Part shown: piece after piece, positions 3,588-26,240 of the stretch
Layout: each line of letters opens with the position of its first letter
How positions within the stretch are numbered: the first letter of the stretch is position 1
DNA from: Faecalibacterium sp. HTF-F
GTDB lineage: Bacteria; Bacillota; Clostridia; Oscillospirales; Ruminococcaceae
DNA: 64,000 nt
Assembly (NCBI RefSeq): GCF_023347535.1
Contig: NZ_CP094473.1
Span: 1,240,001 to 1,304,000, forward strand
Reading direction: 5' to 3'
Translations under genes and position numbers: made by a program
Notes under the pieces: model-generated
What the model was told of the DNA's origin: nothing
What the model saw: the letters and a program-made list of their open reading frames with translations, nothing else
Databases searched by the model: none

Positions 3588-3599
3588 CTGTGCCAGAAA

Positions 3600-3858
3600 G
3601 TTCGTTTCAGGGCGGGGCGTGATTCCCCACTGGCGGTAAGGAAGTTGCTTTCGTTGCCGGAGCGTGCCAAAGGAACAAAAAAGTTCAAACGGCGCGCAAT
3701 GACAATGAGAGAGATCTCCAAGTCCGCGACCACCTTTTGTGGGTGCTGACCCGGTGCGATTCCGGGACCAACGGTATAGTCCGGATGTAAGAAACGGCAG
3801 GCAAATTGTTGTCTACGCGCCCTGTTGCAGTGTTTTTTGTTGCAGCAGGGCGCTTTTC
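3600..3858 (+). promoter_or_regulatory. FMN riboswitch (RFN element) with terminator platform
   Basis: The conserved RFN blocks are present in order: GGGCGGGGCGTGATTCCCC, ACTGGCGGTAA, AGTCCGCGA, GGTGCGATTCCGGGACCAAC, and AGTCCGGATG followed by GAAAC. The closing P1 stem pairs CGTTTC (3603-3608) with GAAACG (3791-3796). Downstream, GCGCCCTGTTGCA (3817-3829) pairs with TGCAGCAGGGCGC (3841-3853) and is followed by TTTT, a terminator that is the expression platform. High FMN should stop transcription before ribU. Recognition is from family knowledge and is very secure. Confidence 0.97.
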
Positions 3859-18956: not shown

Positions 18957-18996
18957 AAATACACAGCATCTCAAAAGGGATGCTGTGTATTTTTTG
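18957..18996 (+). terminator. Terminator of pta
   Basis: AAATACACAGCATC and GATGCTGTGTATT arms followed by T-run. Confidence 0.93.
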
Positions 18997-19032
18997 TCTG
19001 TAAGAGTTATGAAACTTGATTTCACATAAACA

Positions 19033-19076
19033 GAGCAGGAGCCGCTGCCCGTAACAAGGGACAGCGGCTCCTGCTC
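19033..19076 (-). terminator. Long hairpin after the small peptide gene
   Basis: GAGCAGGAGCCGCTG (19033-19047) pairs with CAGCGGCTCCTGCTC (19062-19076). On the minus strand it follows the 74-codon peptide gene and is followed by a weak T-rich stretch; a terminator role is likely but not certain. Confidence 0.5.
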
Positions 19077-19117
19077 AAAAGATAAAACGATTCTTTATCC
19101 GTAAGTTTTAAATTGAA

Positions 19118-19342
19118 TTACTGAAATCTGCTCGGAAGATAGCTGCTGAAAGTGATTCTTTCACGGACACAAAGGGAGCAGAAATTCTTGTGAAGCGCAA
19201 CTGCTGAATACGCAAAAGGCTGAGTGAAATAACTATTGCTTGTTACGTAGTTCTGGCAATACGGGCTGGTAGTATACCAGTATGTTACTGTTCCGCCACC
19301 GGAAATCTCGTACTGCTCTTCTTTCGGAATCAAAGTCATCAT
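19118..19342 (-). CDS. Candidate double-glycine-leader peptide (bacteriocin/RiPP precursor-like)
   Basis: A 74-codon gene begins at ATG 19342 with an excellent site, GAGGTGG, 6 bases upstream. The first 17 residues, MMTLIPKEEQYEISGGG, look like a double-glycine export leader (Glu at -8, Ile at -4, Gly-Gly). The remaining about 58 residues are rich in Tyr, Ser, Thr and Phe with three Cys (SPYCQN and NFCSLC), unlike a typical cytosolic protein. It has a perfect consensus promoter and an AT-rich context, divergent from an XRE regulator. I recognise no close family and no adjacent transporter or modification gene is present, so export and activity are inference. A longer frame upstream exists but lacks a ribosome site. 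Confidence 0.5.
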   Translation of the reverse strand: MMTLIPKEEQYEISGGGTVTYWYTTSPYCQNYVTSNSYFTQPFAYSAVALHKNFCSLCVRERITFSSYLPSRFQ

Positions 19343-19489
19343 ATAATTCCACCTCAACATTCTTGACGAAGATGATTTATACTGCCTGCAAATGGAATCG
19401 TCATTTGTCAGCAATATGCAATATAATGAAAATTGAAAAATATAAAATGAAGCAATAAAAACTATAGAATTATCGTAGTTTTCAATATA

Positions 19490-19518
19490 ATTATATGATA
19501 CATGCAATAGCTTGTCAA
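19490..19518 (-). promoter_or_regulatory. Perfect consensus promoter of the small peptide gene
   Basis: On the minus strand TTGACA (19518-19513), exactly 17 bp, TATAAT (19495-19490). The predicted leader is about 140 nt, AT-rich and without clear hairpins. The 263-bp gap between the two divergent genes holds this and the XRE promoter region. Confidence 0.88.
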
Positions 19519-19605
19519 GCAAAAATATAAAATAAGGAATAGTTTTACAATTCGACTATCAAGACTGACTATACTTAAAACAGTTTGACAGTTGGAGGCT
19601 GAATC

Positions 19606-19929
19606 GTGTTTGGCGAATTGTTGTGTGAATTGAGAAAAGACCGTGGAATGACTCAGGCAGAGCTTGCAAGATTGCTCTCGCTTTCTCCACTGACGGTTTC
19701 TTCTTATGAGTGCGGGCGCAGTACGCCAGACGATGCGACAAAAGTGAAAATTGCAAAAATCTTCAATGTTTCGCTGGATTATCCACTTGGACTGATTCGG
19801 GAACCATTGCCGTATGAGAGAGATGCTCACATCATTTATTGCGTGCCGGAATTTACACCAGAAGAAATTCAAAAAGTACAAGAATACACGGAATTTCTAC
19901 AGTATCGCAAGGAAAACAATAAAAAATAA
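19606..19929 (+). CDS. XRE family helix-turn-helix regulator
   Basis: This is a 107-residue protein with an N-terminal HTH_3/Cro-CI domain at about residues 4-60 (LRKDRGMTQAELARLLSLSPLTVSSYECGRSTPDDATKVKIAKIFNVS, seen here in pieces), followed by a short charged tail. It starts at GTG with GGAGG 7 bases upstream. It is AT-rich like the neighbouring peptide gene, which is divergent, and a likely role is control of the shared intergenic region; a TATACT -10 lies at 19570-19575 with a poorly spaced -35. Target genes are not proven. Confidence 0.88.
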   Translation: MFGELLCELRKDRGMTQAELARLLSLSPLTVSSYECGRSTPDDATKVKIAKIFNVSLDYPLGLIREPLPYERDAHIIYCVPEFTPEEIQKVQEYTEFLQYRKENNKK

Positions 19930-19979
19930 AAGTTAATTGAAGGGAAGATTCAAGAGGGGAAAATTGAGAAGTTTTACTC

Positions 19980-23810: not shown

Positions 23811-24161
23811 GGGGGCGTAAAGGTTTCGACGGGGAGAGCGAGGTCTGGGCAGCGGGTAGCAGTGGGGGAACTGCTCTATAACTCCTCCAAAAAAATTAAC
23901 TGACAATAACAATTCTCAGTTGCTCGCAGCCTGAGTGCTGCGCGTTCCGCCCACTCTTGTGTCGTGTGGGGCCGGGGCGTCCTTTAGACACAGCACCTGA
24001 ACGGACCTAAGCTTTGCGGACCGGCAGGAACTCATGAAGCTACCAATGCGCTAGCCTGACGATCGGCGTGGCGCGGCGGGAATGTTGTAGATCGCCTGCA
24101 CCCGGAGACACCTGCACTGAACTCTTTTCGGACATGGGTTCGACTCCCATCGCCTCCACCA
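23811..24161 (+). ncRNA. ssrA: Transfer-messenger RNA (tmRNA)
   Basis: The 5' end GGGGGCG-TAAAGGTTTCGACGGGG and the 3' end GGGTTCGACTCCCATCGCCTCCACCA form the tRNA-like domain; the acceptor pairs GGGGGCG (23811-23817) with CGCCTCC (24151-24157) with one G.U, and CCA is encoded. A tag-like frame ends in ...AACAATTCTCAG, then TTG CTC GCA GCC TGA, i.e. a tag ending NNSQLLAA. The exact resume codon cannot be fixed by eye. It lies just behind smpB, and its 3' side adjoins the AT-rich inserted segment. Confidence 0.97.
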
Positions 24162-24167
24162 CTTGAA

Positions 24168-24229
24168 AGGGCGAGGGTATTTAGTACTGTTATTTTCGGA
24201 CAGTATCGGATACTCTCGCCTTTATTTTT
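24168..24229 (+). terminator. ssrA terminator
   Basis: GGGCGAGGGTAT (24169-24180) pairs with ATACTCTCGCC (24210-24220) with an inner TACTGT/ACAGTA stem; T-rich tail. The tail contains the stop codon of the inverted transposase gene. Confidence 0.85.
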
Positions 24230-25328
24230 GTTGCTGATATGATTCCTCAAATTGATTTGGGGTTTGCTGTTTAAGACATTCATGTAGTCGGTAATTGTTA
24301 TAAAAATCAATATATTCTGATAGACTTTCCTCTAATTCGGAGACAGTTTCATAAAAATGAAATTTGAACTGTTCCTTTTTAAGCGAAGCAAAGAAAGATT
24401 CCGCCACAGCATTATCAAGTGGATTGCCTATATTGGAAAAAGATTGGTGTACATTAAAGTCAAGAAGTAGTTGACGAAAGTTGAAGGCGGTATACTGTGC
24501 GCCTTGGTCACTATGAAATGTTACCCCTTGCGGATGGTTCCGATTTTGATAGGCCAATTTGAATGTGTGGATCGTGAGTTCTGCATCGGCGAATTCGGCA
24601 ACGGCATGTGAAACGACTTTTCGAGAAAACAGGTCGATGATAACACAGACATATGCGACAGAAGTGTTTACCTTAACATAGGTGATGTCACTGACCTAAA
24701 TGCTGTTTGGTTTTTCAACGATAAAATTTTGCTTTACGAGATTGGGACGATAAGTATAGTGCCGCTGAAAAGTAGCATTCTCTGGAAGTGCTTGTTTACG
24801 TTTTAATCCGTGCTCTTTCATGAGCCGCACAATACGTTTTGTGCTAACGGTATAGCCTTGCTCCATCAATTTTGCGCGAATCTTTTTTGCACCGAAACGG
24901 TAATCGCTTTTCTGGAAGATGATAGCGATTCTTTCTTTCAAAAGCGTATCTTCTACATCTAGTTGTTTTTCAATCAGTGCACTTTTCTGCCTATTTATGT
25001 AAGTGGATTTTGAAAGATTCAGCAAACGGCAAAGTGTGTAGAGGCTGTATTCTGACTTTAAGGCATCAATAATTTGCACCTTGTTGTCTATGGACAAATC
25101 AAGAGCAGCAAGAGATTTTTGATAGATGGAATTTTCATTTTCCAAGGTTGCAACATGGCGTTGAAGCGTTGCAAGATCGCGTTTAGAAATGTTTGAGACT
25201 TTTGCTTCTTCGATCCATTGGTATAAGATACTGCGAGAAATATGGAACTGGGCACAGAGATCAGCGGTACTTGTGCCACCGTTGTATAGCTGGACAACAT
25301 GATTTCTAAGGTCAGCAGAGTAAGTCAT
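24222..25328 (-). pseudogene. IS3-family transposase with an in-frame amber codon
   Basis: The frame starts at ATG 25328 (AAGGAG upstream) and runs to TAA at 24222-24224, 369 codons, but is cut by TAG at 24696-24698. The first part has the OrfA-type HTH (HFISRSILYQWIEEAK) and a leucine-zipper region, fused without frameshift to the OrfB-type core. After the amber the sequence resumes in frame with VSDITYV (first Asp), HSDQGAQY (second Asp) and AESFFASLKKE (catalytic Glu). The position of TAG corresponds to the Trp before VSDIT in relatives, a TGG-to-TAG change. It is either inactive or needs read-through. Confidence 0.85.
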
Positions 25329-25426
25329 AGTGTTCTCCTTTGTAATATGAAATATTGTTAGTATCTCACAAAGAAGAAAATATGTAAACTTTATATGAAG
25401 TACTTGACAATTAACGAAAAGTAACA
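24222..25426 (-). mobile_element. IS3-family insertion sequence, ends not fixed
   Basis: The element holds the broken transposase and is markedly richer in A+T than the flanks. The right end is probably between 25340 and 25426. A similarity between TGTTATTTTCG (24188-24198) and the complement of 25416-25426 (TGTTACTTTTCG) could be terminal repeats, but the left copy lies inside the ssrA terminator stem, so that reading is doubtful. No clear target duplication was found. Confidence 0.6.
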
Positions 25427-25432
25427 TATACT
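25404..25432 (+). promoter_or_regulatory. Strong promoter at the right edge of the IS
   Basis: TTGACA (25404-25409), 17 bp, TATACT (25427-25432), pointing into the DUF3800 unit. The -35 may belong to the IS end and the -10 to the flank. Confidence 0.85.
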
Positions 25433-25439
25433 ATTCTTG

Positions 25440-25540
25440 CAGGTAGAAATACGCTGTATACTCGTGTATCCGAATTTACGTTTAAGCGACATGTAATGTC
25501 GTCGGGCACGAGGGATGAGCCGCCTTCGGGCGGCTTTTCT
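25440..25540 (+). ncRNA. Small structured RNA upstream of the DUF3800 gene
   Basis: Starting about 8 bases after the -10, this roughly 100-nt RNA folds as CTCGTG (25461-25466) with CACGAG (25507-25512), then TCCGA (25469-25473) with TCGGG (25502-25506), and an inner CGACAT-GTA-ATGTCG hairpin (25487-25501). It ends in GAGCCGCC-TTCG-GGCGGC-TTTT (25517-25538), an intrinsic terminator 12 bases before the gene's ribosome site. Several DUF3800 RNA motifs have been described upstream of such genes; this layout fits them, but the class cannot be assigned by eye. Confidence 0.65.
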
Positions 25541-25559
25541 GTTTATATGGAGGATTTTC

Positions 25560-26240
25560 ATGGACGTTTATGTATATTCGGATGAGTCTGGAGTATTTGA
25601 TAAGAAGCATAACGACATATATGTGTTTGGCGGACTTATCTTGCTAGGAAAAGACTCAAAAGATGAATGGAGCAGGCGTTATATTGCAGCGGAAAAAGCA
25701 ATTCGGTCTAACTATGAGGAAAAGGCTGAATTAAAAGCATCTTACGTTCGCAACAAAGATAAGTATAAGCTATTCCGATCATTAAATGGTTGCTATAAGT
25801 TCGGAGTGGTTATTCAGCAGCAAAGAGTCCTTGATCGAATTTATAAAAGTAAAAAGGACAAGCAGCGATATTTAGATTACGCATATAAAATTGGATTAAA
25901 GAGAGCGATGGAGGCTTTGATTCGAGATGGCCTTGTTTCGGATAAGGATGTAAAAAATTTGAGGGTGTATGTGGATGAACATACAACAGCGACAAATGGA
26001 AGGTATGAATTAAGAGAAGGTCTTGAACAAGAGTTTAAGAATGGTACATATAATTATAACTATGGAACATTCTATGAACCACTGTTTGGTGGCTTGCAGA
26101 GTGTACAACTTACGTTTTGTAACTCGGCAACAACTACGTTAGTACGGGCAGCGGATCATGTTGCAAATAGAATATATCATGAATCGTTGACATGTATTCC
26201 GGCTAGTAAAGAAAAGATGACGATTACGATTTTACCTTAG
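25560..26240 (+). CDS. DUF3800 domain protein
   Basis: The 226-residue protein starts at ATG 25560 with GGAGG 8 bases upstream. It has the DUF3800 pattern: N-terminal YVYSDESGVFD with the conserved acidic pair, the central VYVDEHTTATNGRYELREGLEQEF, and late RAADHVANRIYH. These Asp/Glu positions suggest an RNase H-like metal fold, but the function of the family is not established. The gene is AT-rich, like the IS next to it, and unlike the surrounding chromosome, suggesting transfer. It probably depends on read-through of the RNA terminator at 25517-25538. Confidence 0.85.
   Translation: MDVYVYSDESGVFDKKHNDIYVFGGLILLGKDSKDEWSRRYIAAEKAIRSNYEEKAELKASYVRNKDKYKLFRSLNGCYKFGVVIQQQRVLDRIYKSKKDKQRYLDYAYKIGLKRAMEALIRDGLVSDKDVKNLRVYVDEHTTATNGRYELREGLEQEFKNGTYNYNYGTFYEPLFGGLQSVQLTFCNSATTTLVRAADHVANRIYHESLTCIPASKEKMTITILP

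Follow-up and report, generated by a model that had tools for sequence, protein, structure and literature searches.

What does a short gene with a double-glycine leader, transcribed away from a Cro/CI-type regulator in a Faecalibacterium chromosome, encode, what controls it, and by which route would its product leave the cell? Faecalibacterium is among the major commensals of the human gut. The source genome, that of Faecalibacterium sp. HTF-F (GCF_023347535.1), is a single contig of 2.78 Mb, of which a stretch of 64,000 nucleotides (NZ_CP094473.1, positions 1,240,001 to 1,304,000), here called the window, was analysed. A first-pass annotation had described the peptide gene, its ribosome-binding site, its promoter and the divergent regulator, all of which were found where it had placed them, and had proposed an exported peptide controlled by its neighbour. 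No literature on this cassette was found by title or abstract start. Our reading is that the peptide is a new orphan of the double-glycine type and that its gene is governed by a modular XRE switch, with export, repression and function presumed from sequence.

Peptide gene and insertion site

The peptide gene (19118..19342, minus strand, stop codon included) encodes 74 residues beginning with MMTLIPKEEQYEISGGG and places cysteines at positions 29, 55 and 58, the three that had been counted in the 74-codon frame. A Shine-Dalgarno sequence, GAGGTGG (19349..19355, minus strand), is located 6 nt before the ATG, and the gene is preceded by an exact TTGACA-N17-TATAAT promoter (19490..19518, minus strand), which occurs once in the 64 kb and in 0/100 shuffles. 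From the position of this promoter the transcript would be expected to start at approximately 19483, about 141 nt ahead of the coding sequence; a structured RNA in this 5' leader was considered and rejected (z of -1.65, 16/200 shuffles folding equally well, no Rfam match there). A terminator-like 18-bp GC-rich hairpin with a weak T tail (19033..19076, minus strand) lies 41 nt past the peptide stop; it is present as a single copy in the window and has no strong T run. Judging from the protein cluster list, the gene is probably uncalled in the annotation of this genome.

Open reading frames (ORFs) of 25-110 aa carrying the pattern E...[ILVM].GG near their start were scanned in the window and in eight simulated windows for comparison. 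The window yielded seven start-codon matches, three within the peptide gene and four at one other place, and each simulated window yielded 0-4, so that the GG motif by itself is within chance. Among the window matches a Shine-Dalgarno site was carried by the peptide ORF only, and the eight simulated windows held one such match overall; the combination of motif, Shine-Dalgarno site, exact promoter and conservation is beyond chance.

The peptide and regulator genes occupy an AT-rich insert of approximate extent 18996..19977, between the pta terminator and the promoter region of the SRP RNA, the ends being placed by eye against locus L068. The AT-rich patch of the first-pass description was recovered over about 1 kb, the GC content in 200-base windows being 26-46% at 18.9-20.1 kb. 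It reaches 57-62% within pta (17.9-18.9 kb) and 53-69% past 20.0 kb, and a second dip, to 38%, is seen in the gap upstream of pta. The flanking genes are pta, named by eye, and the small SRP RNA, identified with Rfam. A pta match was obtained in 27 other genomes of the genus, and the SRP core was found within 1.5 kb beyond pta in 11 of them; in the other 16 it was not found in the stretch available. The distance from pta to the SRP core is 184-313 nt in 10/11 genomes, 1,422 nt in the eleventh (L083), where a different long ORF occupies the interval, and 1,181 nt here. The site is variable, and the peptide-XRE pair looks like an insertion. Within the cassette, no transposase or integrase ORF was seen by eye, no inverted or direct repeat pairs the two ends, and no convincing third gene is present, the other ORFs of at least 40 aa overlapping the peptide gene, the XRE gene, pta or the SRP RNA. 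A phage or plasmid origin was rejected, as no match was found in phages or plasmids; the 25 PHROGs matches shown for the XRE protein are regulators, DNA-binding proteins, one transposition protein (E=0.002) and proteins of unknown function.

Peptide family, leader and candidate exporter

Three relatives of the window peptide (P0001) were found among 5.8 billion proteins. P0002 (66 aa) is 98% identical over 80% and has a different tail, P0003 (78 aa) is 80% identical and has two extra residues directly after the GG, and P0004 (77 aa) is 62% identical, its called start lying five residues before the leader start. P0003 and P0004 come from metagenome contigs of 1,168 and 901 bases. The coding sequence is conserved, with the GG, C29, H51, C55, C58 and the stretch YWYTTSP after the leader kept in all four members; the GG motif is thus retained as far as the 62% relative. 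The tail of P0002 after FCSLC differs and is shorter, so that the last 16 residues of the peptide may vary. No credible match was obtained in the 30 other genomes of the genus (the source being one of 31), in 393 other genomes of the order or in 395 other genomes of the family (overlapping samples). Pattern scans of genome_contigs and viral contigs and tblastn searches of phages and plasmids, collections that may lack the closest records to this genome, likewise returned none. Weak matches at E values of 0.0363 or worse (genus) and of 9.6e-6 to 0.0089 (order and family) were rejected as short and partial, several of them with stops, and the best of these (L259), inspected by eye in three frames, bore no resemblance to the peptide.

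The predicted leader, MMTLIPKEEQYEISGG (16 residues; 19295..19342, minus strand), has its GG at residues 15-16, after which cleavage is presumed to occur. Transporter contact or cleavage positions of GG leaders given in the available part of PMC7018657 include -4, -12, -15 and the GG itself. The window leader carries I, Q, I and M at -4, -7, -12 and -15 and is therefore hydrophobic at three of the four positions, the non-hydrophobic Gln at -7 being shared with P0002 and P0003. The corresponding region of P0004, MTPISEKEMNEIYGG, carries I, M, I and M and is hydrophobic at all four, with Glu at -8. The leaders of P0001 and P0004 are identical at 8/15 positions (-15, -14, -12, -8, -5, -4, -2 and -1), an agreement that covers these five of the positions named in that source. 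Against the TIGR01847 bacteriocin signal model, P0004 scored 15.3 bits, just under the cut-off of 15.7, and no match was obtained for P0001 or P0003, nor for the one MAM protein tested, itself a proposed GG protein. The likeness to bacteriocin-type leaders that had first been noticed was therefore approached by P0004 and not recovered by profile for the window peptide or P0003; the motif in all four members and the P0004 residues at -4, -7, -8, -12 and -15 nevertheless support an export-type leader.

In their short GG leader, in the hydrophobic residues at -4, -12 and -15 and the Glu at -8, and in the presence of a C39 transporter in the genome, the peptide and its setting resemble exported GG peptides as described in the available part of PMC7018657, where orphan GG peptides are counted among the substrates of peptidase-containing ABC transporters. 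They differ from these in that no transporter or modification gene was recognised adjacent to the gene, in the Gln at -7 of the window leader, and in the lack of any family over cut-off in Pfam or NCBIfam or of any match in PHROGs; a single chance Pfam match below cut-off was the sole curated family match of the window peptide. Cut after the GG, the peptide is predicted to be 58 residues long (6.8 kDa, pI 8.9, 22% aromatic), and it contains no membrane segment.

A candidate for an exporter encoded elsewhere, as the first-pass annotation had suggested, is available. One over-threshold C39-peptidase ABC transporter is present in the genome (G000:C1:1839637), approximately 580 kb from the cassette, and its link to this cargo is a proposal of ours. 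The gene is intact (777 aa, no stops) and scores over the Peptidase_C39 and TIGR01193 cut-offs (582.6 versus 523.85 bits for TIGR01193). A C39 domain over cut-off was detected in 27/31 genomes of the genus and in 21/22 of those of good quality, with a weak match in G028 and a short frame in G030. The transporter is 74-95% identical to those at the 19 relatives' loci compared (L265-L283) and 79% identical, over 463 residues, to the mam-adjacent one in G021. No GG-motif frame lies beside the transporter gene in the stretch read around it (L094). Candidate GG peptides from a motif scan of 20 transporter loci were rejected, being one MAM (L283) and four antisense-looking frames (L268, L271, L274 and L275).

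This transporter has been proposed as the exporter of MAM, a GG-leader envelope protein (PMC8836110, PMC12184118), and MAM is the only client named in the available parts of these two sources; in the latter, the transporter-MAM interaction is argued to be extremely specific, which, like the 580 kb between transporter gene and cassette, counts against the export route proposed here, and the MAM leader motif is given as MMMPANx(8,11)VxGG. The MAM genes place the source genome in Faecalibacterium, since G021, a genome of the same genus, carries the first 42 residues printed for F. duncaniae MAM in the same part of PMC12184118. Of the 29 distinct MAM leader rows printed, 25 carry ENE[ML]xYVxGG and four EVVYGG. 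Two neighbouring mam copies are present in the source genome (G000:C1:1105640-1106917; L324), far from the C39 transporter gene, and have identical leaders, MMMPANFSAVAENELTYVVGG. The window peptide shares with MAM its genome, its candidate exporter and a double-glycine leader that starts with MM. However, MAM proteins are 124-156 aa long in the rows listed and carry MMMPAN, whereas the peptide has 74 aa, contains cysteines, adjoins its own XRE gene and does not match the MAM motif in its leader.

The divergent regulator and its putative boxes

The divergent gene (19606..19929, plus strand, GTG start) encodes a 107-aa Cro/CI-type XRE regulator, as had been claimed (HTH_3, E=1.3e-12), and all 12 Pfam matches of the protein are helix-turn-helix types within residues 2-59. 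Its best NCBIfam match is the RstR-like repressor model NF041951, which spans residues 2-103; however, the score is 50.4 bits, below the cut-off of 80, and where close relatives have a divergent ORF, it mostly encodes a protein containing a hydrophobic segment. RRNPP/Rgg peptide receptors have a C-terminal peptide-binding repeat domain. This domain is absent from the XRE protein, and a peptide-receptor role was rejected, the 107-aa protein having the helix-turn-helix domain only.

A search with the protein gave 104 clusters at E values of 1e-8 or below, its own among them, and its matches in the 30 other genomes of the genus reach 48% identity only. Thirty loci of close relatives (L099-L128), from at least 80 matches in genome_contigs, were examined, the nearest among the matches listed being two from Gemmiger (L099 and L100; 73-74% identical). 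As to the conserved pairing of peptide and regulator looked for in relatives, the peptide was found in none of these 30 loci, taken from the at least 80 matches. Cargo swapping around the regulator is observed instead. A divergent ORF of at least 50 aa led by a Shine-Dalgarno sequence is present in 23/30, and 22 of these 23 contain a hydrophobic segment (a 19-residue mean of at least 1.6), compared with 44/128 control ORFs of at least 100 aa from the same loci (Fisher 1.8e-8, a value that overstates independence because many loci are close kin). Close relatives of the regulator thus mostly face membrane- or secreted-protein genes, which is consistent with a cargo that is exported here too, by a different route. 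A divergent promoter matching at least 11/12 positions was found in 21/30 (12/12 in the window), with 77-108 nt between the far edge of the -35 hexamer and the XRE start (88 nt in the window); the promoters of the Gemmiger pair match at 10 and 9 of 12, with TTGACA retained. Fifteen further and mostly more distant XRE loci, of which L285 looks the same as L109, gave a promoter of at least 11 in 4/15, a divergent ORF in 6/15 and a hydrophobic segment in 3/6. This weaker pattern slightly lowers the odds for the reading, and the rule of divergent promoter and hydrophobic cargo is confined to the close XRE clade rather than extending to all relatives. In L116, L118 and L119, repeated boxes resembling CATAAG(T/A)TTTC were seen by eye around the promoter, and the divergent genes there have an N-terminus that we take to be TasA/CalY-like (AWFTDTE).

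Three putative XRE sites were delineated around the two promoters. Box 1 (CGTAGTTTT; 19474..19482) lies at the expected start of the peptide transcript, box 2 (AATAGCTT; 19506..19513) shares one base with the peptide -35 hexamer, and box 3 (AATAGTTTT; 19538..19546) lies directly against the expected -35 of the XRE gene, whose probable -10, TATACT (19570..19575, plus strand), is invariant in the window and the Gemmiger pair. The TAG of each box (19476, 19508 and 19540) is invariant in the window and both Gemmiger loci, at a spacing of exactly 32 bp. These three loci hold 4, 4 and 3 sites that differ from AATAGTTT at no more than one position, against shuffle means of 0.76, 0.43 and 0.41; boxes 2 and 3 of the window count among these sites, and box 1 is two mismatches away. 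A 9-mer repeated at 31/32 bp with at most one mismatch was found in 11/24 anchored regions of the family (resampled mean 1.62, maximum 5) and in 7/16 when one locus per group, chosen by eye, was retained, whereas the window itself fails this strict test, its boxes being degenerate. The shared 32-bp boxes support direct repression by the XRE protein. The regulation by the divergent neighbour envisaged at the outset thus gains support at the promoter itself, more weakly so in the wider family.

Proposed mechanism and competing readings

The following explanation, taken as a whole, is considered moderately probable. The two-gene cassette was probably acquired, and its XRE protein would bind boxes three helical turns apart, with dimers on one face of the DNA, two boxes bracketing the strong peptide promoter and one abutting the XRE gene's own promoter. 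The regulator would repress the peptide gene and itself, keeping both low until a signal relieves repression. The peptide would then be made with its double-glycine leader, which the C39-peptidase ABC transporter encoded in this genome would remove after the GG on export. The released product would be an aromatic peptide of 58 residues with three Cys, located outside the cell or in the envelope and probably unmodified or disulphide-bonded. An envelope or extracellular peptide is our first choice of function; from the features described above we infer repression of the gene, cleavage and export of the peptide, and any extracellular role it may have.

The same export route could serve a class II bacteriocin, the mature 58-residue peptide killing related bacteria and the XRE protein controlling its production. 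The GG leader, the cationic and aromatic mature part, the conserved Cys pattern and the occurrence of the peptide in 1/31 genomes of the genus and in few database proteins would suit such a role, which is nonetheless judged unlikely given that no immunity-type gene was seen among the cassette ORFs of at least 40 aa, that the peptide has no membrane segment and that no curated bacteriocin family was matched over cut-off, the profiles giving nothing for P0001 and P0003 and sub-cut-off matches for P0004. These last matches bear rather on a lanthipeptide or another RiPP modified by an enzyme encoded elsewhere: P0004 matches lichenicidin A2 (E=0.0067, 16.8 of 32.95 bits, residues 10-54), plantaricin C and an rSAM-target model, all below cut-off, the peptide is Ser/Thr-rich with three Cys, and RiPP-type clusters are described from Faecalibacterium genomes in the available parts of PMC11169845 and PMC12802319. 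However, no LanC-like domain was detected in the single-contig genome (PF05147, E up to 10, a model that detects 5/14 control genomes) and no enzyme gene was recognised by eye beside the peptide, and we regard a RiPP as very improbable. The step from the leader towards either class, which the first-pass annotation had left open, thus finds no support in a family match, a LanC-like domain or a third gene.

A reading that dispenses with export takes the GG as incidental and the product as a cytosolic metal-binding peptide (through C29, H51, C55 and C58) or a small XRE-linked toxin. His51 and the three Cys are unchanged in 4/4 members, five close relatives of the regulator (L099, L100, L101, L110 and L111) drive proteins starting with CxxC pairs, and a 29-aa CxxC frame occurs in L287. 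Yet the leader contact positions and the GG are conserved as in transporter substrates, down to the 62% relative, and a hydrophobic segment is also present in each of the five CxxC proteins, which leaves this reading distinctly unlikely.

If export by the C39 transporter holds, the MAM exporter would have a second, conditionally made client, and with a second candidate client the specificity of the transporter would become directly testable with two leaders. More broadly, and tentatively, the XRE cassette of gut Clostridia would be a plug-in switch for exported products with swapped cargo, the window peptide representing a new family and being the second client of the MAM exporter; such a switch may combine a near-perfect divergent promoter and boxes at a spacing of three helical turns with a regulator that stays fixed while the cargo gene is exchanged between genomes. 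The regulator cassette in this sense predicts, in a form open to testing, that gut Clostridia possess a switch for exported products.

Elsewhere in the window, an FMN riboswitch was identified at 3599-3800 (Rfam, 96 bits), and a tmRNA gene (23811-24161) is followed by broken IS3-type transposase-like frames (24222-25427, by eye). Just past these split frames, a DUF3800-I RNA (25432-25548; Rfam, 98 bits) overlaps the start of a 241-aa ORF (25515-26240) that, going by the name of the RNA, probably encodes a DUF3800 protein.
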